Source: Laspinema palackyanum D2c
GTDB taxonomy: Bacteria > Cyanobacteriota > Cyanobacteriia > Cyanobacteriales > Laspinemataceae
DNA length: 51,430 bases
Assembly (NCBI RefSeq): GCF_025370875.1
Contig: NZ_JAMXFD010000001.1
Location: 438,784-490,213 of the forward strand
Direction of reading: 5' to 3'
Shown: piece after piece, positions 8,099-50,776 of the stretch
How positions within the stretch are numbered: position 1 is the stretch's first letter
Layout: the number at the start of each line of letters is the position of its first letter
Position numbers and translations under genes: made by a program
The notes under the pieces: model-generated
What the model was told of the DNA's origin: nothing
Database searches by the model: none
Seen by the model: the letters and a program-made list of their open reading frames with translations, nothing else

Positions 8099-11035
8099 AT
8101 GCTAAATTTCGAGACAACCGTGAACGACACAGATTTAGTCAGACAGTCTCCCCCTACTCCCGAATCTCAACCCGTCATGACGCCGGATGCCTTTGTCCAC
8201 CGACACAATGGACCCTCCTCGGATGAAATTGAGCAAATGCTGCAAGAAGTCGGGTTTTCCAGTCTGGATTCCCTGATTGAGTCTACGATTCCCAGTCGGA
8301 TTCGCCGCAATATCCCCCTGAACCTGCCGCAACCCCTCAGCGAAACCGCCGCATTAACCAAACTCAAACAAATCGCCTCCCAGAATCAACTATTCCGGTC
8401 CTTCATTGGCATGGGATACCATGACTGCATCACGCCGCCGGTGATTCAGCGGAATATCCTGGAAAATCCTGGGTGGTACACGGCATATACGCCCTATCAG
8501 GCAGAAATCGCCCAAGGACGATTGGAGGCCCTGCTGAATTTCCAGACGATGATTGTGGATTTGACAGGATTGGAAATTGCCAATGCCTCTCTGTTGGATG
8601 AGGCGACGGCAGCAGCGGAAGCGATGACCCTGAGTTATGGGTTTTGCAAAACCAAGGCAACTGCTTATTTTGTCAGTGAGGATTGTCATCCGCAAACCAT
8701 TGAAGTGGTCCAAACTCGCGCTAGACCCCTAGGGATTGAGGTCATTGTCGGCAATTTTAGACAATTTAACTTCGATCGCCCGGTGTTTGGGGTGTTGTTA
8801 CAATATCCGGCAACCGATGGCGCGGTTTATGACTATCGGGAATTTGTAGAAAAAGCGCATACTGCTGGCGCGATCGCCACGGTGGCAGCAGATATTTTGA
8901 GTCTGGCATTACTCACCCCTCCCGGCGAATTTGGGGCGGATATTGCCTTGGGAAGTACCCAACGCTTTGGAGTCCCCTTGGGTTATGGGGGACCACACGC
9001 CGCTTATTTTGCCACCCGGGATGAATATAAACGGCAGATTCCGGGACGAATTGTGGGAGTCTCTAAAGATGTCAATGGCGATCGCGCCTTACGGTTGGCC
9101 CTGCAAACTCGCGAACAGCATATCCGTCGAGAAAAAGCAACCAGCAATATTTGCACCGCCCAAGTCTTGTTAGCGGTAATTGCCTCCATGTATGCCGTGT
9201 ATCACGGTCCCAGCGGAATTAAACGAATCGCCGAAACCGTCCATCATCTCACGGTAATTTTGGCCGCAGGATTAAACCGTCTGGGATACAACCTCGGTTC
9301 TGAACCCTTTTTCGATACCTTGCGGGTGGAGTTGGGGACAAAATCTCAGTCACAACTTCTTGCAGCAGCAGCGAATCACCAGATTAATCTCCGGGTTCTG
9401 GATAAAACAACCCTGTCCATTAGTTTAGATGAAACAACCACCCTGGAAGACTTACAGAATCTCTGGGCAATTTTCGCCAGTGGGGAACCGTTGCCGTTTA
9501 CGGTGGAACAATTGGCAACAGAGGTGAATAGTCGCTTTGACTCGACCTTTGCCCGGACTAGCAGCTATCTCACTCATCCGGTGTTTAATCGCTATCACTC
9601 GGAAACGGAACTGTTGCGCTATCTGCATCGCTTGGAATCCAAGGATTTATCTCTCACGACTTCGATGATTCCCTTGGGGTCTTGTACCATGAAGCTGAAT
9701 GCAACAGCAGAGATGATTCCCATCACTTGGCCAGAATTTGGGAAAATACACCCGTTTGCACCAGTCGCCCAAACCCAGGGATATCAACTATTATTCCAGC
9801 AGTTAGAGGCAGGGTTGGCGGAAATTACCGGATTTGCTGGGATTTCTTTACAACCGAATGCCGGTTCCCAGGGGGAATATGCGGGATTGTTGGTGATTCG
9901 TCAGTATCACGAACATCGCGGGGAATCTCATCGGAATGTCTGTTTGATTCCGACTTCCGCCCACGGAACAAATCCGGCAAGTGCGGTGATGTGCGGGATG
10001 AAGGTGGTTCCGATCGCCTGTGATGAGAATGGAAATATTAATGTTGAGGACCTGAAGGCGAAGGCGCAGAAGCATTCTCAGAACTTGGCGGCGTTGATGG
10101 TGACTTATCCTTCGACTCATGGGGTATTTGAGGTGGGGATTAAGGACTTGTGCCAGGTTATCCATGATTGTGGCGGTCAGGTGTATATGGATGGGGCGAA
10201 TATGAACGCCCAAGTGGGGTTATGCCGTCCGGGAGATTTTGGGGCGGATGTCTGTCACTTGAATTTACATAAAACCTTCTGTATTCCGCATGGGGGTGGC
10301 GGTCCAGGGATGGGTCCGATTGGGGTGATGCCCCATTTGGTGCCGTTTCTGCCCGGACATTCCGTGGTGAAGGTGGGGAGTGATGAGGCGATCGGGGCGG
10401 TTTCGGCGGCCCCTTGGGGAAGTGCGAGTATTCTGCCGATTTCCTGGATGTATATGGCAATGATGGGTTCGGCAGGATTGACCGCAGCGACTCAGGTGGC
10501 GATTTTGAATGCGAATTATATTGCCAAGCGGTTAGACCCTTATTATCCGGTGTTGTATAAGGGGAAAACGGGTTTGGTGGCCCATGAGTGTATTTTGGAT
10601 TTGCGATCGCTGAAAAAATCCGCCGGAATTGAGGTGGAGGATATTGCCAAACGGTTGATGGATTATGGATTCCATGCGCCTACGGTTTCTTGGCCGGTGG
10701 CGGGGACAATTATGGTGGAACCGACGGAAAGTGAGTCTAAGGAAGAATTAGACCGCTTCTGTGAGGCGATGATTGCGATTCGGGAGGAGATTCGGGCGAT
10801 CGAGATGGGGACGATGGATGGGGAGAATAATCCCTTGAAGAATGCGCCGCATACGGCAATGGTGGCGATCGCCTCGGATTGGAATCGTCCTTATAGTCGG
10901 GAACAGGCGGTATTTCCGGCCCCTTGGACGCGAGAACACAAGTTTTGGCCCTCGGTGGGACGGATTGATAATGCCTATGGCGATCGCAATTTAGTTTGTT
11001 CCTGTTTACCGATGGAGGCCTATTCCCAGGAGTAA
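8099..11035 (+). CDS. gcvP: Glycine dehydrogenase (decarboxylating), P protein
   Basis: A 978-residue pyridoxal-phosphate enzyme. It decarboxylates glycine and passes the aminomethyl group to lipoyl-GcvH. Both halves of the long homodimeric form are present. The PLP-binding lysine is Lys725 in HLNLHKTF, followed by the glycine-rich loop [11 protein letters not shown]. The N-terminal block with [12 protein letters not shown] and the block [14 protein letters not shown] are conserved family sequences. The start ATG at 8099 adds about 25 poorly conserved residues; a second ATG (MTPDAF) is 25 codons in. It works with the gcvH gene immediately upstream. Confidence 0.97.
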
Positions 11036-11095: not shown

Positions 11096-12710
11096 AATTT
11101 TCTCTGATGAGGATTTAAACTTTCTTGAAAAAGGGGAATTTTTTACCCGAAATTTTCTCTGATGGAGATTTAAACCTGGGTCAATTTGAGTGATTTTAAA
11201 GATTGGTGTTGAGAGAGAGGAAGTGGCGATCGCCTCGGGTTAACGATATCAAATAGGGGTAGGAAGCGAGTAACTACAACTTGGCCTACAATCCTTGCTA
11301 CAGCGATTATTTTTCTCAACGCTTAGACTGGGCGATTTTAGGGCAGTCGGGAATGGATGAAACCCTTTCTCCTTCGGAACTCCAACAGAAACCTTCCAAA
11401 TTTTTCCCCGGTACCCGGAAAATAGGGAACCCATCCCCCAAGGGAGACGTCTCAATTTCGGAAGTGACTAAAAATCCGATTTAAGCCATCCCTCTAGTTA
11501 TTGCACTTATTAAATGTAATTATTTCAAGTTAAAATCCAATCCCTGACTCCCAAGATGATTGATTTCTGCCCTAATCTGGAAAAAATCGCTTTTCACAAA
11601 CTTGTCACTTTATTATAGGGACTTAAGTGAACTTCACTTAGAAAGTATTTAAAGGAGTAAATGAGTAGGAGGTTGACAAAAATTAGACAGGACAAACCCG
11701 GGCAATTTCTTCTCCTTCCCCAATTTTATAGGCAGATTTTTTTTAAAGAATTACCCCATGATATCTCTTTCTTAATTTTAGTTCCCAATTTTATTTAATT
11801 TTTTTCTGTTTTAATTCTCTTTAAAAAAATATTTAACAATAACCGAGTTTTATTCAAATTGCTGCACCCCTTAATTAAAGGCAGTTTTCGGGATAAGAGA
11901 TTAATTTTCGCAGACCCTTGGCAGAATTTTTCCCCACCCCCCTCTCTTAAAGCAGGAGAATCGGTGGGGACTTATTCCTCAGGATGCAAGGGGTCTAAAT
12001 TCTTATGGATTATTAACCTTTAAGTGAACTCAATAATTCCCCTGATTATCACCTGTAACTCTCTGGCAGAGCTAATTTCAGACGAAAGAGGATGGGAGAT
12101 ATCCCGTTTTATTATTCAAATAATGTACTGACATTTTCAGGGATTTACTTAATGTTCATGGCCGGATTAAACTTAGAACAAAAAAATAAAAATCCGCAAA
12201 AATACGGAAGCCAACTGATTCTCATGTTGGGTAAGGTAAAACGTAGGTTCTACAAGTCCCTAAAGGTTCCGATATTTAAATTTAATCCGATGGCGCTTGC
12301 CCAGAAAATAAATTTAAACCCTCGGAAACATTCTCGGAACAATCAAGTCTAACCACTTAACCGGAACATCCGGGATTTGGCAAATGTCAAGGAAGGGAAC
12401 AAGAAAAATCAAAATCTGGTCTTTCCTTGATGTACCGCTTTATAAGCAGATAAGTCAAGATACAACCCGGGGTGTTTAAAAGTGGACATCACTATTAAAT
12501 TAGGAAATTCCCAAGTTCAAATTAAGGATGATGCTCAAGATGTCCTCAGACAATCTAAGCGAACGAATAAACATTGTAAATCAGGGAATCCCTACCTCTT
12601 ATAGGGAGCATCTATAGCGAAATCAGTCCCGGAAACGGGAAACCGGGCTTTCCGTTTCCACCGACGCAGTTCCTTGACTCTTATTGACTCTCAAACACTG
12701 GAGCTTTTTT
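11096..12710. other. Long AT-rich leader region ahead of the giant repeat-protein gene
   Basis: About 1.6 kb with no convincing gene. It holds a 25-base imperfect direct repeat (11096-11120 and 11151-11175); a perfect interrupted palindrome AAGTGAA-C-TTCACTT (11625-11639), with a related half-site TTAAGTGAACT at 12020-12030; long AT tracts at 11740-11870; and a hairpin GGAAACGG / CCGTTTCC (12631-12659) about 50 bases before the next start. Weak short frames exist at 12092-12352 (86 codons) and 12482-12604 (40 codons, GTG start); neither has supporting evidence. The palindrome and hairpin are plausible regulatory sites. Confidence 0.5.
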
Positions 12711-15700
12711 ATGTTGACCCAAGAAGAACAATTGCTTCCCCATATCAACGACACCACCACTGGGGTAGAAGCCACACAAACCGATGATGGAACCGTGATG
12801 GTAACCGCTACTGAAACCAGCGCAGAAACAGCAACAAAGGAACCAACCGTAGAGACAACGGATGCGACCCTTGAAAAACCTGTAACCGAAGAGTCTGCTA
12901 CCCCTGACGCCTCAATCCGAACGGTAGCAGTGGGGACAGACGACGCAACAACCACACAAGATGGCACCGCCACGACTTCTGTTGTGCAAGATGGCACCAC
13001 AGCCGATGCCACGGTCACGGATGATGACCTGATGACCACGACTGCTGTTGTGGAAGATGCCACCCCAGCCGATCCCACCGCAGAATCTGGCACCTTGCCC
13101 GAAGGTGACCCGATCGCAACCACAGCCATTCCAAACGAAGATAGCGAAGGTGAAGCCACCCCAGAAGATGACACCGACACCGCAGGGGAAGAGATGATGG
13201 AAACCACTGCCATGACGGAAGAAGAAATGGCAGAAGCCGAAGCGATCGCAGAAATAGAAGATTCCGGCATATTTGATCCAGACTACTATCTGGCCGCAAA
13301 TCAAGATGTCTTAGAAGCAGTGATGCGCGGAGAAACCACTGCAATTCGCCACTACGCCCAACACGGGATGAAAGAACTCCGCAGTTTCAACGCCTTTATC
13401 GACATCAAAGGCTACGTTGCAAATAACACAGACGTTGAAGAAGCCGTCGAAAAAGGCGAGTTCACTGCGTTCAGTCACTTTAAGCGCCACGGCCAGTTTG
13501 AGAAACGGTTCGCCCATGCCTTGTTCAAAGCGGAAGAATACGAAGCCTTCCATCCAGACGTTCAGCAAGCGGTTGCCGAGGGTAAAATCACGTCTTGGGG
13601 TCACTTCCAGAAGTTTGGCTGGAAAGAAAACCGCCAGTTTAGCTCATTCTTTAATGCTCAATATTATCTCCAGCAAAATGAAGATGTTGCACAAGCTGTA
13701 GCTGCCGGTGAAACTACTGCGATCAAACATGCGTTTGAATTTGGCCTGAAAGAGATGCGCAAGATCCACCCCTTGCTCAACCTCAAAGTGGTGGCCGAAG
13801 CCAACAGCGAGAAGATTAAGAGCTTTTTCAATGTGGGTGAACTATCCGCCGTCAGCGGATTTGATCTCATCTCTTATGCCATCAATGTAGCAATTCCCCA
13901 AGGATTGCCCACCTCTGAATCCTTCAGCTTGAGCAGCCTGGAATCTCTCTTTGGGTCTCAGTTGACAAGCATTTTCAAGGTCAGCAGCTTCTCCCAAATC
14001 AGCATCCAGCAACTGTTCGCCTTCTTCGGTAGCGCTGAAGGTCAAGAACTCTTAGCTAGTGCCGGTGGCGATGCCCTGAGTGATGGCAGCGGCAGCAACC
14101 TCAGTGGCAGCGGTGGCCTCAGCGGTGGTAGCGAAGACCTGGATGGAGAGGATGAGGGAGATGACGCCCAAGAGGGATCCGGTCCCCAAATCGTCTTTAA
14201 TATCCCCACTGCCGGTCCGAGTGTTCCCAGCACTAATAACAGCAGCGGCGAAACCCCTGATGACCCCACAGGCGAAACCCCTGCTAACCCAACCAGTCCA
14301 GCACCTGCTCCGACTGCGTTATTCAACGTTCAATACATTGTCAAGAACAACCTAGAGGCACTCCGCGCACAGTTTGCCAGCTTTGATTTCAACAATTTGA
14401 CGGCTGAACAGGCCGCGCAAATCCAACAATACGCTGCGGCACAAGGATTGAATCCTTCCCCCTTCGTCAACTTGAGCTACTTCCAGTCTGCGGTCAAGAC
14501 CCAAGTTGAGACCAAACTCCTAGAGCAAGGTATGACGGCAGAGCAAATCTCCAGCCTGAGCTTACAAGAGTTGCTGGAAAAATCCCTGGAACTCGGATTT
14601 AGCCCATCTCCCTTAATCGATTTGTCTTTCTTCAAATCGTCCAACAGCGTTGAACTGACGAAACTGGCGACTAAACTCGGAGTAGATATCTCCACCTTCA
14701 CCAACAAGGAACTGTTTGAGTTCATCGTGAAAGAAGGTATCGAAGCCGGTTTAAATCCGTCTCCGTTCTTCAGTGTTGGCTACATCAAGAAACTTTACAT
14801 CGAAAGCATTCGCGAGTTTTACAGCCGCGAGAGTATCTCGGAACTGGAAACCCCTGAAGTTTTGGATCATGTCTTCAGTAGCGGTAACTTCGTCCTAGAT
14901 CTGAACTTCTATCGCACCAAGTACACCGCAGAACTGGATGCCTACGCCAAAGAATTGTTAGGTGATGAGGCCGCTACCGGGGAAGACCTCAGCGACGATC
15001 AGGTGAAAGCTTATGCCTTTGGGGAAGGGAAGGATGCTGGTTTACAGACTTCTCCATTCGATATCGAAGGCTTCAGCGTAGAATTTGAGGCCCAACTGAA
15101 GGCTTTCTACACCGTAGAGTCGGTTGAAACCCTCAGCGAGCATCAAATTTACCGCTTCATGGTTACCGAGGCGATCGCCCAAGGACTCAATGTTAGCGAA
15201 TTTATTGATGTCTCCTACTATCAAAGCACCTTCGAGGCGGCCCTCGTTGCCACCTTTGAACTCACCGCGATTACTGAAATCACCGCAGAACAAGTGGTCA
15301 GTTTCATGTTCGGTGATGCTGCTCCCTTCGTAGATTCGGACTACTTTAAGCTGAAATACGGTGAACAAATCACCGCTGACGGCACCGCCGTTAAAGACCT
15401 CAGTGGCAAAGAACTCCAGTTCTACATCTTCAGCGAAGGCTGGGAAGCCGGATACACCAGTCTGTCTGCCTTCGACCTAGAAGCGATTACCGCTGACGCC
15501 ACGATTTCCAGCAAACTTCTGACCTTCTACGCTGCTGCCTCCATCGAAGAGGTTACTTCCTCCCAGATTATCAGCTACATGACTGAGGAAGCCTGGAAAA
15601 TCGGCATCGACCTGTCTGCGTTCGTTGCGGCAGAAGATATCGAACTCTATCGTGACCAAAATGCTGCTCTGCTGGCGGAATACTACGGCATTGAACTCAC

Positions 15701-17738
15701 GGCAGTGGAAACCCTTAACAGCGAACTGGTCCTCGACTTCCAGTTTGGCGGTGCCACTGAGGTTGCTGACATTGAGTACATCCGCGCTACCTTGGGTGAA
15801 GAAATCCTGACAGCGGTGAATACCGCAGGTGGTACCCTGACCGATGTGAGCCAACTGACTAAGCTGCAAATCGTCGAGTACCTGTATGCACAGGAAAGCT
15901 TAGAAACGGTCAAACTGTCTGCCTTTGATGTGGCCGGATATGTAGAAGCCAATGGTGAGGCGATCGCCGAAGCCTTGGGTATCGAAGTTGATGCTCTCAG
16001 CGAAATTGACAGCAAGCAAATCGAGAAGTTCATGCTTAAAGAAGGCGTGGCCCTCGGTCTAAGCTTAGAAGGATTCGTGGAAACGGCTTACCTCAAAGAG
16101 GCTTATGGTCTGGCGATCGCCGAATCCCTCAACATCACCCTAGAGGAAGTCGCCACTCTCGACAGTGCAGCAGTTCTCAACTGGGTCAGCAGCGAATTCT
16201 CCGGACTTGATGTGAACTTCCTCGCCTACCAGTTTGAGCAACTGACTCAGGAGCAACAAACTCAACTGTTGACTGGATTACAAATCACAGTCACCGAAGG
16301 CGCATCCTTGAGCGTCGAACAAGTCCTTCAAATTGCCTACAGCGAAGAATTCAAGGCTGTCTTAGCGGTTGAAGAACTCAAACTGAGTGCGATCGATATT
16401 AACGCCTATGTGACCGCCAATAGCGAGGCATTAGCAGCCTTCTACGGCGGTGAAAGCAGCCCCATCAAAGTCAAGAGCGGTTCCTTCAAGCTCGGTAAGA
16501 GCGGTTCATTCGGCTCATTGAAATCCATGAGTGGTTCCGCTAAGTTCAAGAGCGGTTCGATCAAGCTCAAGACTGGTTCTCTGAAACTCAGTGGAGCGCT
16601 CGACGAGGGGGGTGAGTTCGATGTCAACTCCCTCACCGATAAGCAAATCATCAAGTTTGCTCTCACGGAAGGCTTGAAACAAGGAATCGACCTCACCCAG
16701 TATGTGGATGTTGATTACCTCAAGCAAGAGTTCACCGTTGACCTGGCGCGTCACTACAATATTGAAGTGAGTACCGTGGTTGACCTCAAGCAAGAACTGG
16801 TTCTTGACTACCTCTATGGCGGTCTCTCTAGTGAGATTGACTTCGAGTTCGTCGGTACTCAGTATGCAGCGGAAATCGCAGGCCAGTTTGGAGTCACCGC
16901 TGACCAAATCACCGATGCTCAAATCCTGGAATTTGCTTACACCCAGGTTGCTTCGGGAGCAGACTTCTCCTTCACCCCGGTTGATATTGAAGGATTTGTG
17001 GCGGAATACGGGACTAAACTCCTGGAAATCGCTGGTGCTTCCTCTACCTCTGGCGTCTTCAGCAAGTCGGATATCGTCTCCTTCATGTTCAACCAAGCGT
17101 CTGAACTGGGAATTGATATCACCCAATTTGTCGAAATGGATTACTATACCGAGAAGTTCTCGGATAAGATCCTGGCGAACTACAGCCTCGAAAATGTCTT
17201 CAATCTCAGTGGTGAGCAAGTTTATAACTTCATGACGACTCAAGGGATTGGTGAAGGGTTAAATACCTCTGCTGTGATTGACTTAGAGTGGTATAAGACA
17301 GAATATGCCACGGTGCTGGAGGAAGACAAGGCACTAATCGACGTCGATGCCAACGGCGAAATCTCTAACGACGAACTCTTCGACTATGTAACGGGTGCCG
17401 GGTTAGAAAAGGGTCAAAATCCATCGGAGTTGGTTGACTTCGCGTCCTATCTGGCGGAAGGATCGGCCTCAGCGCAATCCCTACTCACTTGGGCTAATGC
17501 TTCTTCCCTCGAACAAGTCAGCTACTCACAAACCCTGGAGCATATGTTCAGTGCCGGATTAGAAGCAGGGTTCGCGCCCTCTGCTGGTCTGGATGTGAAT
17601 GCACTGAAAACTCAAAATGCTGAAGCCCTGACTCAGTTCTACAAAGCCAGCTCCCTTACCGAAGTGACGAACGTCCAAGCGTTCAACTTCGTCTACGGTT
17701 CCGGTTACCAACAACCCGAAGAACCCGCCGGGGTGTAA
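12711..17738 (+). CDS. Giant acidic tandem-repeat protein with one EF-hand
   Basis: A 1675-residue protein with no family I can name as a whole. I chose ATG 12711 over an earlier TTG because GGAG sits just ahead of it. Layout: residues 1-185 low-complexity Thr/Ala/Glu/Asp; about 188-355 four to five units of the surface-type repeat (FDPDYYLAANQDV...AIRHYAQHGMKE pattern); about 450-535 a Ser/Gly/Asp then Pro/Thr linker; from 536 about 21 diverged units of roughly 50-75 residues with a hD-x-x-Y/F start and an h-x-F-x-x-x-EG-x-x-x-G-hydrophobic end. A Lys/Ser/Gly-rich basic insert lies at 1249-1295. A canonical EF-hand loop, DVDANGEISNDE, lies at 1544-1555. There is no signal peptide or membrane segment. 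Codons favour C-ending forms, suggesting high expression. A role in scaffolding or export to the surface is inference. Confidence 0.85.
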   Translation: MLTQEEQLLPHINDTTTGVEATQTDDGTVMVTATETSAETATKEPTVETTDATLEKPVTEESATPDASIRTVAVGTDDATTTQDGTATTSVVQDGTTADATVTDDDLMTTTAVVEDATPADPTAESGTLPEGDPIATTAIPNEDSEGEATPEDDTDTAGEEMMETTAMTEEEMAEAEAIAEIEDSGIFDPDYYLAANQDVLEAVMRGETTAIRHYAQHGMKELRSFNAFIDIKGYVANNTDVEEAVEKGEFTAFSHFKRHGQFEKRFAHALFKAEEYEAFHPDVQQAVAEGKITSWGHFQKFGWKENRQFSSFFNAQYYLQQNEDVAQAVAAGETTAIKHAFEFGLKEMRKIHPLLNLKVVAEANSEKIKSFFNVGELSAVSGFDLISYAINVAIPQGLPTSESFSLSSLESLFGSQLTSIFKVSSFSQISIQQLFAFFGSAEGQELLASAGGDALSDGSGSNLSGSGGLSGGSEDLDGEDEGDDAQEGSGPQIVFNIPTAGPSVPSTNNSSGETPDDPTGETPANPTSPAPAPTALFNVQYIVKNNLEALRAQFASFDFNNLTAEQAAQIQQYAAAQGLNPSPFVNLSYFQSAVKTQVETKLLEQGMTAEQISSLSLQELLEKSLELGFSPSPLIDLSFFKSSNSVELTKLATKLGVDISTFTNKELFEFIVKEGIEAGLNPSPFFSVGYIKKLYIESIREFYSRESISELETPEVLDHVFSSGNFVLDLNFYRTKYTAELDAYAKELLGDEAATGEDLSDDQVKAYAFGEGKDAGLQTSPFDIEGFSVEFEAQLKAFYTVESVETLSEHQIYRFMVTEAIAQGLNVSEFIDVSYYQSTFEAALVATFELTAITEITAEQVVSFMFGDAAPFVDSDYFKLKYGEQITADGTAVKDLSGKELQFYIFSEGWEAGYTSLSAFDLEAITADATISSKLLTFYAAASIEEVTSSQIISYMTEEAWKIGIDLSAFVAAEDIELYRDQNAALLAEYYGIELTAVETLNSELVLDFQFGGATEVADIEYIRATLGEEILTAVNTAGGTLTDVSQLTKLQIVEYLYAQESLETVKLSAFDVAGYVEANGEAIAEALGIEVDALSEIDSKQIEKFMLKEGVALGLSLEGFVETAYLKEAYGLAIAESLNITLEEVATLDSAAVLNWVSSEFSGLDVNFLAYQFEQLTQEQQTQLLTGLQITVTEGASLSVEQVLQIAYSEEFKAVLAVEELKLSAIDINAYVTANSEALAAFYGGESSPIKVKSGSFKLGKSGSFGSLKSMSGSAKFKSGSIKLKTGSLKLSGALDEGGEFDVNSLTDKQIIKFALTEGLKQGIDLTQYVDVDYLKQEFTVDLARHYNIEVSTVVDLKQELVLDYLYGGLSSEIDFEFVGTQYAAEIAGQFGVTADQITDAQILEFAYTQVASGADFSFTPVDIEGFVAEYGTKLLEIAGASSTSGVFSKSDIVSFMFNQASELGIDITQFVEMDYYTEKFSDKILANYSLENVFNLSGEQVYNFMTTQGIGEGLNTSAVIDLEWYKTEYATVLEEDKALIDVDANGEISNDELFDYVTGAGLEKGQNPSELVDFASYLAEGSASAQSLLTWANASSLEQVSYSQTLEHMFSAGLEAGFAPSAGLDVNALKTQNAEALTQFYKASSLTEVTNVQAFNFVYGSGYQQPEEPAGV

Positions 17739-17757: not shown

Positions 17758-17877
17758 GGAGGCGATCTCGCCTCCACCCCCCAAAGGACAACTTGGGCTA
17801 ATCTAAGCGATTTCAGCCCCGGTTGACAACTATAGGCCACCCACTCGCTCAACATTGCTAGGTGGGTGGCTATTTTT
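17758..17877 (+). terminator. Two hairpins ending the giant gene
   Basis: The first hairpin (17758-17775) is GGAGGCGA / TCGCCTCC with a two-base loop and no T tract. The second (17836-17870) has nine-base arms GCCACCCAC / GTGGGTGGC and runs into TATTTTT, so it is the better terminator. It lies 48 bases ahead of the kinase start, so some read-through into the kinase gene is possible. Confidence 0.65.
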
Positions 17878-17924
17878 ATGGCGGTACAAGTACAATATCG
17901 GATACTAATAAAGAGCAACAACTT

Positions 17925-19238
17925 ATGGCTTGGCAACCCGGAGAACAATTACTCAACGGTAAGTACACCATCGAATCCGAACTCGGCCAAGGCGGGTTTG
18001 GAATTACCTATCTCGCTCGGGACGATCGCGATCGCCCCTTTGCAATTAAAACCTTGGGGCGCAAAGCTCGCTTTACTCAGGAACTCGTTAAATATAAAGA
18101 AGAATTTCTCAAGGAAGCAGACTGTTTGTCTCGCTGCATTCATCCCAGTATTGTGCGACTTGAAGAGGTGATTGATACGGACTCCCTCTGCTGTATGGTG
18201 CTTGAATACATTGATGGCACGCCCCTCGCCCGCTTGGTTAAACAAAAAGGCCGTTTATCTGAACGGGAAGCCTTGTTTTATACCTATCAAATCGCGGATG
18301 CTCTGCGCCTGGTTCATCAACAAGGCTTCTTACACCGAGATGTTAAGCCGATGAATATTGTCTTACGTCAAGAACGGTCCGATGCGGTGTTGATTGATTT
18401 TGGATTAGCCCGGGAGTTTTCCCAAGATGGGGTAGATATTCATCCTAAACAAGGGTCTCGGGGATTTGCCCCCCTTGAACAGTACGATATGCGAGCAGTG
18501 CGGGGGGCTTATACCGATGTATATGGATTAGCGGCTACTTTATATTCTTTATTAACGGCTAAAGTCCCCCCATCGGCCAGTTCTCGCGATCGCAGTTGGG
18601 TGAAAACCCAAACCGACCCCTTACTTCCCCCCAAAACCCTCAATCAGTCGGTGAGCGATCGCGTTAATGCAGCGATTCTCAAGGGGTTGGCATTAGTCCC
18701 GGAAAATCGTCCCCAGTGCATCGATGCTTGGTTAGAATTACTCCAAGAGCCATCGGATTCCTCCCCCCAACCCACGGAGATGACACCGGCCATCCCGGAA
18801 ATCGCCAGTTCCATCTCAGCCGTCGGCATGGACTATACCACCCTAGAGACTCTATTAGCGGAGGGTCAATGGCAGGAAGCCGATCGCGAAACCGATGCAC
18901 TAATGCTTCGAGTTGCGGGTCGAGAAGCCGAAGGCCGACTCAACATAGAAGATGTTAAACATTTTCCCTGCCGAGATCTCCGCACCCTCGATCGCCTCTG
19001 GACCGAATACAGCAATGGACATTTCGGCTTGAGCATCCAAAGACAGATGTGGAGCAAAAGCGCAGAAGACTACGAACAATTAAGCGATCGCCTCGGATGG
19101 CGACGTGATCAGGAATGGGTCTCTTATGCCGACCTGACCTTTGATATCACCGCACCCGTCGGACATCTCCCGAGTTGGGGACGGCGCGGTCGGTTATGGT
19201 CATTTTTAGCCACACGACTGAAAAAATGTAGCCTATAA
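17925..19238 (+). CDS. Ser/Thr protein kinase fused to a GUN4 domain
   Basis: A 437-residue two-domain protein. Kinase residues 14-272: glycine-rich loop GQGGFG (21-26), catalytic Lys42 in FAIK, HRDVKPMN with Asp139 and Asn144, and DFG at 158-160, all intact, so it should be active. A Pro/Ser linker (276-292) leads to a GUN4 domain (about 303-428) with LLAEGQWQEADRET, FPCRDLRTLDRLW and the sequence GHFGLSIQ. GUN4 domains bind porphyrins and activate Mg-chelatase in chlorophyll synthesis; in kinase fusions the domain may act as a tetrapyrrole sensor (inference). I chose the ATG at 17925, since an upstream in-frame start would encode a run of unlikely residues. The GUN4 part is complete, and no membrane segment is visible. 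Confidence 0.93.
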   Translation: MAWQPGEQLLNGKYTIESELGQGGFGITYLARDDRDRPFAIKTLGRKARFTQELVKYKEEFLKEADCLSRCIHPSIVRLEEVIDTDSLCCMVLEYIDGTPLARLVKQKGRLSEREALFYTYQIADALRLVHQQGFLHRDVKPMNIVLRQERSDAVLIDFGLAREFSQDGVDIHPKQGSRGFAPLEQYDMRAVRGAYTDVYGLAATLYSLLTAKVPPSASSRDRSWVKTQTDPLLPPKTLNQSVSDRVNAAILKGLALVPENRPQCIDAWLELLQEPSDSSPQPTEMTPAIPEIASSISAVGMDYTTLETLLAEGQWQEADRETDALMLRVAGREAEGRLNIEDVKHFPCRDLRTLDRLWTEYSNGHFGLSIQRQMWSKSAEDYEQLSDRLGWRRDQEWVSYADLTFDITAPVGHLPSWGRRGRLWSFLATRLKKCSL

Positions 19239-48738: not shown

Positions 48739-49758
48739 ATGTCCTCACCGATAAGGTTAGCTGTATCAATCGTGCAACCCACAGAATTTGCACTGGGCGT
48801 TTTGGCGATCGCCGCTTATCTGGATTTTTTGATTGGCGACCCTTGGGGTTGGCCCCATCCAGTTCAAGGGATGGGTTGGGTAATTTCTCACTATAGCCAA
48901 TGGGTTTTAAACCGCTGGAAACACCCGGTTATTCGCCGAATTGCAGGGATTATTCTGGCGACTGGGACAGTCGCCTCCACCGGATTAATCGGATGGGGAA
49001 TTATTCAGGGGTCCTATTATTTGCATCCTTTATTGGGAATTGCGATCGAAAGTATCCTCCTTGCCAGTTGTTTCGCGGGTCGCAGTTTAAGAACCGCAGC
49101 AGAAACCGTCTTAGCACCCCTAACCGACTGCGATTTAGAAACAGCGCGGCAAAAATTAAGTCTATATGTAGGTAGAGATACAGACAATCTCAGCCAATCT
49201 GAAGTGATGCGCGCCGTCTTAGAAACCGTTACCGAAAATGCCGTGGATGGCGTCATGGCCCCCTTATTTTATGCGATCGCCGGGGTGATGATTTTTCATG
49301 TTGGGGCCTTACCCTTAGCTTTCGCCTATAAAGCGGCCAGTACCCTCGATTCTATGGTCGGGTATCGGGATGAACCCTATACCGATTTAGGATGGTGTAG
49401 CGCCAAACTCGAAGACCTTCTCACCTGGTTTCCCTGTCGCTTAACGGTAATTACTTTAGGACTTTTAAGCAACTGCCTCCCAGAGATTTGGCGCATCTGT
49501 CAACGGGATGCCACCCAAGACCCCAGTCCCAATTCCGGTTGGAGTGAATGCACCTACGCCGTCATTCTCGGTGTTCAACTCGGTGGCATCAATTACTATC
49601 GCGGCATCCCTAAACCCAAACCCTTCTTAAATACCCCCCTCAATCCCATCACTCCAGAACGCATTCACCAAGGAATGTTACTCACCCGATGGTGCTTTTT
49701 AACTTGGTTGAGTATCACTTTGAGTTGCGGATTCCTCTTCATCCAGTTTGGAGGTTAA
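48739..49758 (+). CDS. cobD: Adenosylcobinamide-phosphate synthase (CobD/CbiB)
   Basis: A 339-residue membrane protein of cobalamin synthesis, which attaches the aminopropanol (phosphate) arm to cobyric acid. The motif YLDFLIGDPWGWPHPVQGMG is the family start; TENAVDGVMAPLFY (about residue 160) and AYKAASTLDSMVGYRDEPY carry the conserved core. Four to five membrane spans are visible. I chose ATG 48739; a GTG at 48682 would add 19 residues. The gene's final codons contain the GGAGG that should serve the next gene. Confidence 0.95.
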   Translation: MSSPIRLAVSIVQPTEFALGVLAIAAYLDFLIGDPWGWPHPVQGMGWVISHYSQWVLNRWKHPVIRRIAGIILATGTVASTGLIGWGIIQGSYYLHPLLGIAIESILLASCFAGRSLRTAAETVLAPLTDCDLETARQKLSLYVGRDTDNLSQSEVMRAVLETVTENAVDGVMAPLFYAIAGVMIFHVGALPLAFAYKAASTLDSMVGYRDEPYTDLGWCSAKLEDLLTWFPCRLTVITLGLLSNCLPEIWRICQRDATQDPSPNSGWSECTYAVILGVQLGGINYYRGIPKPKPFLNTPLNPITPERIHQGMLLTRWCFLTWLSITLSCGFLFIQFGG

Positions 49759-49765
49759 CACACCG

Positions 49766-50776
49766 ATGAATAGTGTTGCATTTGATGAAAACTTTTACCG
49801 AACTGCCTATCCGGATGTCCAATCTGCTATAAATTCGGGAAATTTGCGATCGGGACTCGAACACTTCCAAATGTTTGGCCGCCAGGAAGGTCGAACCCAA
49901 ATCTCTCCCTTCTATAACGAGCAATTTTATCTGAATCGTTATCCCGATGTTGCCAATGCTGTCATTAATCGGGCGTTTATTTCCGGGATAGACCATTTTC
50001 TCCAATTTGGATTGGCAGAAAAACGGGCCGGATCGCTCTTGTTTGACGAAAATTGGTATCCTCAGCGATATCCTGATGTCGCTAATGCCGTGACTGCGGG
50101 ACTGTTTCAATCGGGATTAGAACATTATCGATTATTTGGACAAACCGAAGGACGTTCTGGCACTTCCTTCAATGAATTTGGCTATAAACAGAAGAATCCA
50201 GATGTTAATGCGGCGGTGGAAGCGGGGAGTTTTAATTCAGGATTAGAACATTACATTGCCTTTGGACAATTTGAAGAACGCCTCGGGATTTTTACCGGGA
50301 CTGCTGGGGATGATACCATCACCGGGTTCGGGTCTGTGAGTGAATTATATGGCGTGGATGTCGTTCCGGGTCCCTGTTTCATTGGAGGTTCCCTGACTGG
50401 GGGGGAATGTTTAACGTTTCAAAGTCTTGGGGTGAATGAGGTTGATGTCTTAATTGGAGGTCCGAGTCAAGATACCTTCATGTTAGGACGACTACAAGTG
50501 ACCCGCAGTCTTGTCCTAACGGTTCCTTTTTATGTGGGGAGTGGGAATCAGGATTTTGCCCGAATTCAAAATTTTGAAGTGGGTCAGGATACAATCCAAC
50601 TCGCCGGTGCACCGAGTGACTATTTATTGGAGTCAATTGAGGGAAATGTGCATATTCTGCGGAATAATGTGGGATTATCGGCATCCTTACCCGCTCCCGA
50701 TTTAGTGGCGATCGTTGAAGCGGTCCCCAGTTTGGGTGAGGAGAGTTTAACCTTTGTGAAAGGGACTTTGGGATGA
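49766..50776 (+). CDS. Surface-type repeat protein with RTX-like C-terminal part
   Basis: A 336-residue protein starting at ATG 49766, with GGAGG (49750-49754) overlapping the end of cobD. Residues 5-165 hold four repeats of about 40 residues: FDENFYRTAYPDVQSAINSG, then FYNEQFYLNRYPDVANAV, FDENWYPQRYPDVANAV and FNEFGYKQKNPDVNAAV, each ending in an H-F/Y-x-x-FG-x-x-E-x-R motif. The C-terminal half begins GTAGDDTITGFG, a calcium-binding RTX-like turn, followed by beta-rich sequence. There is no signal peptide. Such repeats occur in cyanobacterial putative secreted proteins; export, possibly by type I secretion, is inference. The same repeat occurs in the N-terminal part of the giant protein at 12711. 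Confidence 0.8.
   Translation: MNSVAFDENFYRTAYPDVQSAINSGNLRSGLEHFQMFGRQEGRTQISPFYNEQFYLNRYPDVANAVINRAFISGIDHFLQFGLAEKRAGSLLFDENWYPQRYPDVANAVTAGLFQSGLEHYRLFGQTEGRSGTSFNEFGYKQKNPDVNAAVEAGSFNSGLEHYIAFGQFEERLGIFTGTAGDDTITGFGSVSELYGVDVVPGPCFIGGSLTGGECLTFQSLGVNEVDVLIGGPSQDTFMLGRLQVTRSLVLTVPFYVGSGNQDFARIQNFEVGQDTIQLAGAPSDYLLESIEGNVHILRNNVGLSASLPAPDLVAIVEAVPSLGEESLTFVKGTLG

Follow-up and report, generated by a model that had tools for sequence, protein, structure and literature searches.

A giant repeat protein of Laspinema and its relatives with short and long units and a single EF-hand-type loop

What is the 1675-residue product of the reading frame at 12711-17738 of this window (the whole 51,430-nucleotide stretch of Laspinema palackyanum D2c DNA analysed here), and where in or on the cell would it work? 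The surrounding genome comprises 7.03 Mb in 81 contigs; Laspinema sp. D2d, Laspinema palackyanum D2a and Oscillatoria sp. HE19RPO 54 are three of its near relatives. We consider it somewhat better than an even bet (about 0.55) that the giant protein is a secreted structural component of the trichome surface or sheath, forming a fibre or stalk with a C-terminal cap stabilised by Ca2+.

Layout of the gene and its protein

The gene begins with ATG on the forward strand, preceded by GGAG at 12700, and encodes an acidic protein of 181 kDa (pI 4.1) in which no signal peptide was seen by eye. Cysteine is absent from its 1675 residues, whereas 24 other ORFs of the window contain 94 in 10,479 residues. 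The protein consists of a Thr-rich tail, four short units and about 24 long units of some 49 residues each, together with a linker, a Lys/Ser/Gly insert and one EF-hand loop. Unit borders were first drawn by eye and then profiled, and the long units are numbered L00 to L23 (residues 353-1675). The first-pass annotation had described about 21 long units following four to five short ones; that plan of the array stands, and the counts become 24 long units, slightly more than proposed, and four short. The features of the locus are as follows.

8099-11035, +: gcvP (glycine cleavage P-protein), the gene before the giant gene, from neighbour comparison; no functional tie is proposed
12311-12710, +: upstream leader with a strong predicted hairpin at about 12630-12660 and GGAG at 12700; 12311-12686 is conserved in five Laspinema-type genomes
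12711-13259, +: N-terminal acidic Thr/Glu/Asp-rich tail, residues 1-183 (44 Thr, 47 Asp+Glu, 3 Lys+Arg)
13260-13763, +: array of four short units of about 42 residues, residues 184-351 (units 186-351), from profile, alignment and model
13767-14072, +: long units L00 and L01, residues 353-454; L00 was profiled, L01 defined by eye and model only
14073-14309, +: Gly/Ser/Asp/Pro linker, residues 455-533, predicted to be disordered (pLDDT 25-34, model residues 281-350)
14310-16454, +: long units L02 to the first part of L16, residues 534-1248, from unit profiles and models
16455-16595, +: basic Lys/Ser/Gly insert in the helix B-C connection of L16, residues 1249-1295, from composition and model
16596-17273, +: end of L16 and L17-L20, residues 1296-1521, from unit profiles and model
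17274-17429, +: unit L21, carrying the EF-hand loop, residues 1522-1573 (55% mean identity, six distant orthologues)
17340-17375, +: EF-hand loop DVDANGEISNDE in the helix B-C connection of L21, residues 1544-1555, from pattern, profile and model
17430-17735, +: last units L22 and L23, residues 1574-1675, from unit profiles and model
17862-19238, +: the next gene, a Ser/Thr protein kinase with a C-terminal GUN4 domain (Pfam Pkinase and GUN4)

Measured as mean identity to six distant orthologues, the most conserved part is L21, followed by L22 (49%) and L09 (48%), and the least conserved parts are the tail (13%) and the linker (19%). The linkers of two relatives, G032 and G058, carry GGxGND-type repeats, with a Pfam RTX match in G032 (two stretches) and none in G058.

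No named family had been recognised for the long unit, and this judgement holds for both kinds of unit in Pfam, NCBIfam and the PDB. With the giant protein as query and matches taken up to E 10, Pfam returned only three weak, unrelated models (best 0.038), none of them from the HEAT, ARM, TPR or PPR families, and NCBIfam a single weak match (0.071); no SLH, LPXTG or PEP-CTERM anchor was among these matches, and Pfam found no RTX repeat (PF00353). Searches of PDB sequences with the whole protein, and with a profile of residues 176-1070, gave no match up to E 1. The short units gave four weak matches to PDB sequences, best E 0.015, two of them to designed and two to unrelated proteins. The family was likewise not found in the literature searched, most subscription papers lying outside that search.

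The AlphaFold models are all-helical (mean pLDDT 80.6 and 78.8; pTM 0.59 and 0.44); because the pTM values are low, we assign no overall shape to the array. Foldseek found nothing in the PDB at E≤0.001 with either model; the best weak matches were to a designed toroid and to designed PPR proteins. The predicted helical units may stack into a solenoid, and the linker and insert are predicted to be disordered. With such stacking the giant protein would resemble alpha-solenoids such as HEAT, ARM, TPR and PPR proteins; it differs from them in matching no Pfam repeat and in having three to four helices per modelled unit. Alpha-solenoids are described as abundant in cyanobacteria, many with HEAT_PBS repeats (PMC3837014).

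Relationship of the short and long units

Twenty-seven unit profiles (the four short and 23 long units, all but L01), each built from at most 15 orthologues, were compared all against all with hhalign. Judged by these profiles, the long units resemble one another beyond chance, but unevenly: among the 253 pairs of the 23 long units the probability is at least 80 in 143, at least 90 in 119 and below 20 in 44. At the threshold of 80, L15 is linked to one other unit and L02 to three. The array also has a period of three. The mean score between units is 43.4 at a distance of 3, 41.2 at 6, 39.3 at 12 and 32.9 at 9, and 24.6-31.2 otherwise; none of 2000 permutations of the unit order reached the observed difference of 9.4, the maximum being 7.8. 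In seven relatives from family f2, in which unit calling left gaps, the period is weak, with 29 of 1000 permutations reaching the value. By eye, a G-LNPSP-like tail is absent from L05, L08, L11, L14 and L17.

The four N-terminal units belong to a short unit of exoproteins that is without a name (Y-x3-NPDV ... H-F-x3-G-x2-EGR): all four are of about 42 residues, and their Y, NPDV, H, G and EGR positions align, with Asn-Pro and EGR altered in some of them. Short NPDV-type units are widespread in bacteria. The long unit differs in its own profile and in an added one-turn helix.

A paralogue on contig 48 of the same genome (L055 6966-11135) has four short units and 11 very regular long units of 49 residues, accompanied by VWA and SdrD_B domains, and is the cleanest example of the long unit.

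The earlier proposal that each long unit is an enlarged form of the short unit stands, most clearly by way of the paralogue. Single-unit profiles of the two kinds reach a probability of 40 at most. Pooled clean short units compared with the long units of the giant family score 16.6 (probability 31, E 5e-4), as against a maximum of 13.4 over 200 column shuffles and 7.2 for the reversed control, so that the direct relationship is suggestive. The long units of the contig-48 type (from contig 48 and a relative in G001) match the clean short units with a probability of 94 (E 1.5e-7) and a score of 31.8, above all of 200 shuffles (maximum 15.7), and match the long units of the giant family with a probability of 99 (E 2e-20). 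Through the paralogue, the relationship is clear at the level of profiles. At i-E<1 the original model of S1-S4 fails to match any long unit of contig 48, and the clean short model matches seven (best 7e-4). A first pooled comparison of short with long units (P 1.4e-5) and 18 matches to both models were discarded as evidence because the iterated short model had absorbed some long units, with six matches in each of L055 and L056 and two in L074.

Structure prediction gave the same helix order, A, B, C, in short and long units. The predicted secondary structure of short unit S2 is -E--E-HHHHHHH-HHHHHHHH-----HHHHHHHHH------ and that of long unit L07 is E-HHHHHHH-HHHHHHHH----HHH--HHHHHHHHHHHHHH----HHH; the long unit gains a one-turn helix in the connection from B to C, and helix C is longer in several of the units. 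The two look like one fold in two sizes.

The short unit extends well beyond this gene. In the stretches fetched from the same genome we found 20 ORFs with short units, of which 15 have four to five units and several are cut by the end of the stretch; they lie on contigs 2, 5, 7, 8, 10, 11, 12, 13, 16, 23, 32 and 36. Sixteen of the 19 scanned carry domains usual in exported proteins (Pfam E≤0.001, sorted by our own judgement), namely RTX, GDSL lipase, S8 subtilase, PPC, PhoD, SBBP, DUF4114, DUF4394 and SBP_bac_3. The other three have no such domain (L100, with DUF5338 only; L101 and L092:14955, with none) and are counted against a reading of export. These partner domains bear out the label 'surface-type' that had been given to the short units, and across this genome the short array seems to serve as a general module for sorting or anchoring. 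Within the window itself, a 342-residue ORF at 49748-50776 (+) has four N-terminal short units followed by an RTX-like GTAGDDTITG stretch, with no Pfam match at E≤0.001.

It is a real, if lesser, possibility, overlapping with the surface-fibre reading, that the giant protein is an adhesin or a crosslinker of the sheath matrix, in which the short array binds polysaccharide and the long array serves only for reach. Short arrays are common to proteins of exoenzyme type, as expected for a matrix-binding module, and the VWA and SdrD_B domains of the paralogue point the same way; such domains are common in adhesins. Set against this, no ligand-binding domain was seen in the giant protein with Pfam or NCBIfam, and conservation along it is highest in the C-terminal EF unit rather than in the short array.

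The helix B-C connection and the EF-hand loop

The insert and the EF loop occupy, in the predicted structure, the same helix B-C connection, in L16 and L21 respectively, at which an ordinary long unit has its one-turn helix. The 47-residue insert (1249-1295) reported earlier was found again; it contains 10 Lys, 14 Ser and 8 Gly, lacks both Asp and Glu, and has a pI of 11.0; pLDDT across it, by tens, is 61, 36, 24, 29 and 54. A Lys/Ser/Gly insert is shared by the genus, G009 and genus g5 (the first copy of G011, G012 and G013). The same site holds Gly/Ser/Thr in G008, Thr/Pro/Gly/Asp/Glu in the second copy of G011 and an Asp-rich segment in G058, and G032 has no insert. A conserved basic motif was rejected since the place is kept and the residues differ among relatives; a spacer or hinge fits the data better than a binding motif. 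The giant protein of G010 (L050 6215-12865) has 77 tandem GKDT tetrapeptides at this site.

These observations also bear on an intracellular scaffold, in which the basic insert would bind to a membrane or to nucleic acid and the giant protein would be a substrate of the kinase encoded next to it. The lack of a signal peptide visible by eye, the high pI and many Ser of the insert, and the kinase-GUN4 gene adjoining the giant gene in a number of genomes would all suit such a protein, but the insert is not conserved in kind and short units are joined to domains typical of exported proteins; we regard the scaffold as quite improbable.

The single EF-hand loop noted in the first-pass annotation is confirmed as the sole match of its pattern in the giant protein, with Asp at position 1, Asp/Asn at 3, Asx at 5, a hydrophobic residue at 8 and Glu at 12; the model places it as helix-E-----E-helix. 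We surveyed 33 long-array proteins from 31 genomes, comprising the 15 A1 sequences and 18 further relatives; these are strong long-array matches with an assembled C-terminus rather than a random sample. All 33 carry the relaxed pattern D-x-[DNS]-x-[DNS]-x-x-[ILVMT]-x-x-x-E at a distance of 120-165 residues from the C-terminus, and 23 of them also fit the strict pattern with Gly6. As background, there are two further matches of the relaxed pattern in 66,121 residues, and seven in 660 shuffled C-terminal segments. The loop is also present in all four further C-terminal pieces (loci L019, L029, L087 and L088, of G001, the second copy of G012, G293 and G368). With these pieces the survey covers the 37 strong genomes other than G204, G213 and G222. 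The proteins of contig-48 type (L055 and L056) have long units and lack the loop, which argues that it is dispensable for the array.

Profile A1 (residues 1018-1675) gave 12 PDB matches up to E 1, best E 9e-4, all at the EF loop and all to proteins named calcium-binding protein, polcalcin or calmodulin; one of them, 1jfj, we take to be EhCaBP1. Pfam detects the loop weakly in the orthologue of G012 (EF-hand_5, E 2e-4, below the cut-off). The giant protein shares with EF-hand proteins, including 1jfj, polcalcins and calmodulin, a 12-residue loop between two helices, and differs in that its family has mostly one loop per protein, inside a repeat unit. A standard EF-hand pair was rejected on this ground. 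Three proteins of genus g5 (G011, G012 and G013; L047, L048 and L049) have two EF-type loops, 17-19 residues apart, in the EF unit. By sequence pattern and model, the EF loop is a candidate Ca2+-binding site.

Beyond the first-pass annotation, the present analysis adds the period of three, the B-C site common to insert and loop, the constant place of the EF unit, and the family with its distribution.

Distribution, expression and a possible role

The long array was matched in 16 of 59 genomes, its own included, with G044 matching weakly (8e-6); G006, of the same genus and 87% complete, gave no match. Profile A1 matches 52 of 388 genomes in a sample of the order at E≤0.001. Strong matches (1e-60) occur in 37 of these 388, its own included, all in families f1, f2, f9 and f20. 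Eight of 386 genomes in a sample of the phylum match, its own included, five of them strongly; beyond the order there is a single match, G539 at 2.5e-4, and it spans the EF region. The longest relatives reach 3662 residues and 61 long-unit matches, and some members contain up to 10 cysteines, which we count against export.

The gene lies downstream of gcvP in the window, in G002, G003, G004, G005, G007, G008 and G009, and in G032, G142, G128, G096 and G079 of family f20, with a kinase-GUN4 gene (47-99% identical over most of its length) downstream in every one of these loci except G003, where the contig ends. Such a gene also lies downstream in G121, in G010 at a distance of 4 kb, and on contig 38 of G112. 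Weaker kinase matches (27-32% over half the length) are found nearby in G011, G012, G013 and G085, and none near the giant gene in G058, G071, the other copy of G112 and the remaining f2 relatives fetched. In the ten f2 relatives fetched, neither gcvP nor a close GUN4 kinase is among the neighbours. The pairing across families is worth noting; a neighbour that encodes a cytoplasmic-type kinase counts against a role at the surface.

High expression had been proposed from biased, C-ending codon use. The bias is real, and it points fairly, though indirectly, to high expression. Over seven amino acids, C/(C+T) is 0.61 for the giant gene, the highest of 25 hand-picked ORFs of the window (next 0.55). 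Among 11 phycobilisome-family matches of the same genome, the six strongest have values of 0.49, 0.76, 0.75, 0.70, 0.21 and 0.68, and the other five 0.08-0.67; the giant gene is close to four of the six. By its effective number of codons (46.8) the gene does not stand out, since five of the 24 other window ORFs are lower. This codon use would fit an abundant product. The conserved leader, some 375 bases long, suggests that the message is regulated: its 75-base windows are 0.80-0.91 identical in all five genomes, as against 0.27-0.71 in the first 600 coding bases. It matches no Rfam family, and among the loci searched it has no match outside the genus. Promoter and terminator scans upstream scored no better than shuffles, and downstream each kind was represented by a single weak site, on the minus strand.

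Returning to the fibre or stalk of the trichome surface or sheath, we infer export from several indirect signs. The absence of both cysteine and a signal peptide (by eye) may point to export by a route that uses no Sec signal peptide, most simply type I export, and the acidic composition and the RTX domains among short-unit partners are further hints of type I secretion. The RTX repeats in the linker of G032, and the VWA and SdrD_B domains joined to both kinds of unit in the contig-48 paralogue, also favour an extracellular place. The short-unit array would then sort or anchor the protein at the cell surface, the long array would act as a spacer or fibre, and the linker and insert as hinges. 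External Ca2+ would fill the EF loop and lock the three units at the C-terminus together as a cap, which may pack against a partner or a second copy of the protein; loss of Ca2+ would loosen this cap.

As a special case of this surface fibre, parallel copies could form the helical fibrils of a gliding trichome and do the job of oscillin, a suggestion we think unlikely. Strong matches are confined, among the genomes sampled, to four families of the order; three named hosts, the Laspinema strains D2d and D2a and Oscillatoria sp. HE19RPO 54, are presumably filamentous gliders, and the protein has a repeat array, a Ca2+-type loop and perhaps high abundance. Like the cyanobacterial RTX motility proteins oscillin and SwmA, it is a large repeat protein with calcium-type features. 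Oscillin is described as a rod-shaped RTX protein of 646 residues and 46 repeats that makes the surface fibrils of Phormidium uncinatum (PMC3034196). The giant protein is not oscillin, since it lacks RTX repeats (Pfam), and its model, set against oscillin as described, is all-helical. Against the suggestion, another paper favours type IV pili and states that direct evidence of fibril contraction waves is lacking (PMC13104615).

A wider joint reading, which we hold as doubtful, is that cyanobacteria, with Laspinema and Oscillatoria as the named hosts, have a novel solenoid family whose B-C connection is the site of invention: the short units leave it empty, the long units place a one-turn helix there, one unit uses it for a flexible spacer and another for a calcium switch. 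The giant fibres would be fibrils of the trichome surface or sheath whose C-terminal cap assembles on external Ca2+.

The family defines a repeat unit found in neither Pfam, NCBIfam nor the PDB, the short form of which marks about twenty other proteins of the genome. Because a single conserved Ca2+-type loop lies at a fixed place, a sharp experiment is possible, and the giant protein, defined by its sequence and open to test, may be considered a candidate major surface protein of filamentous cyanobacteria.
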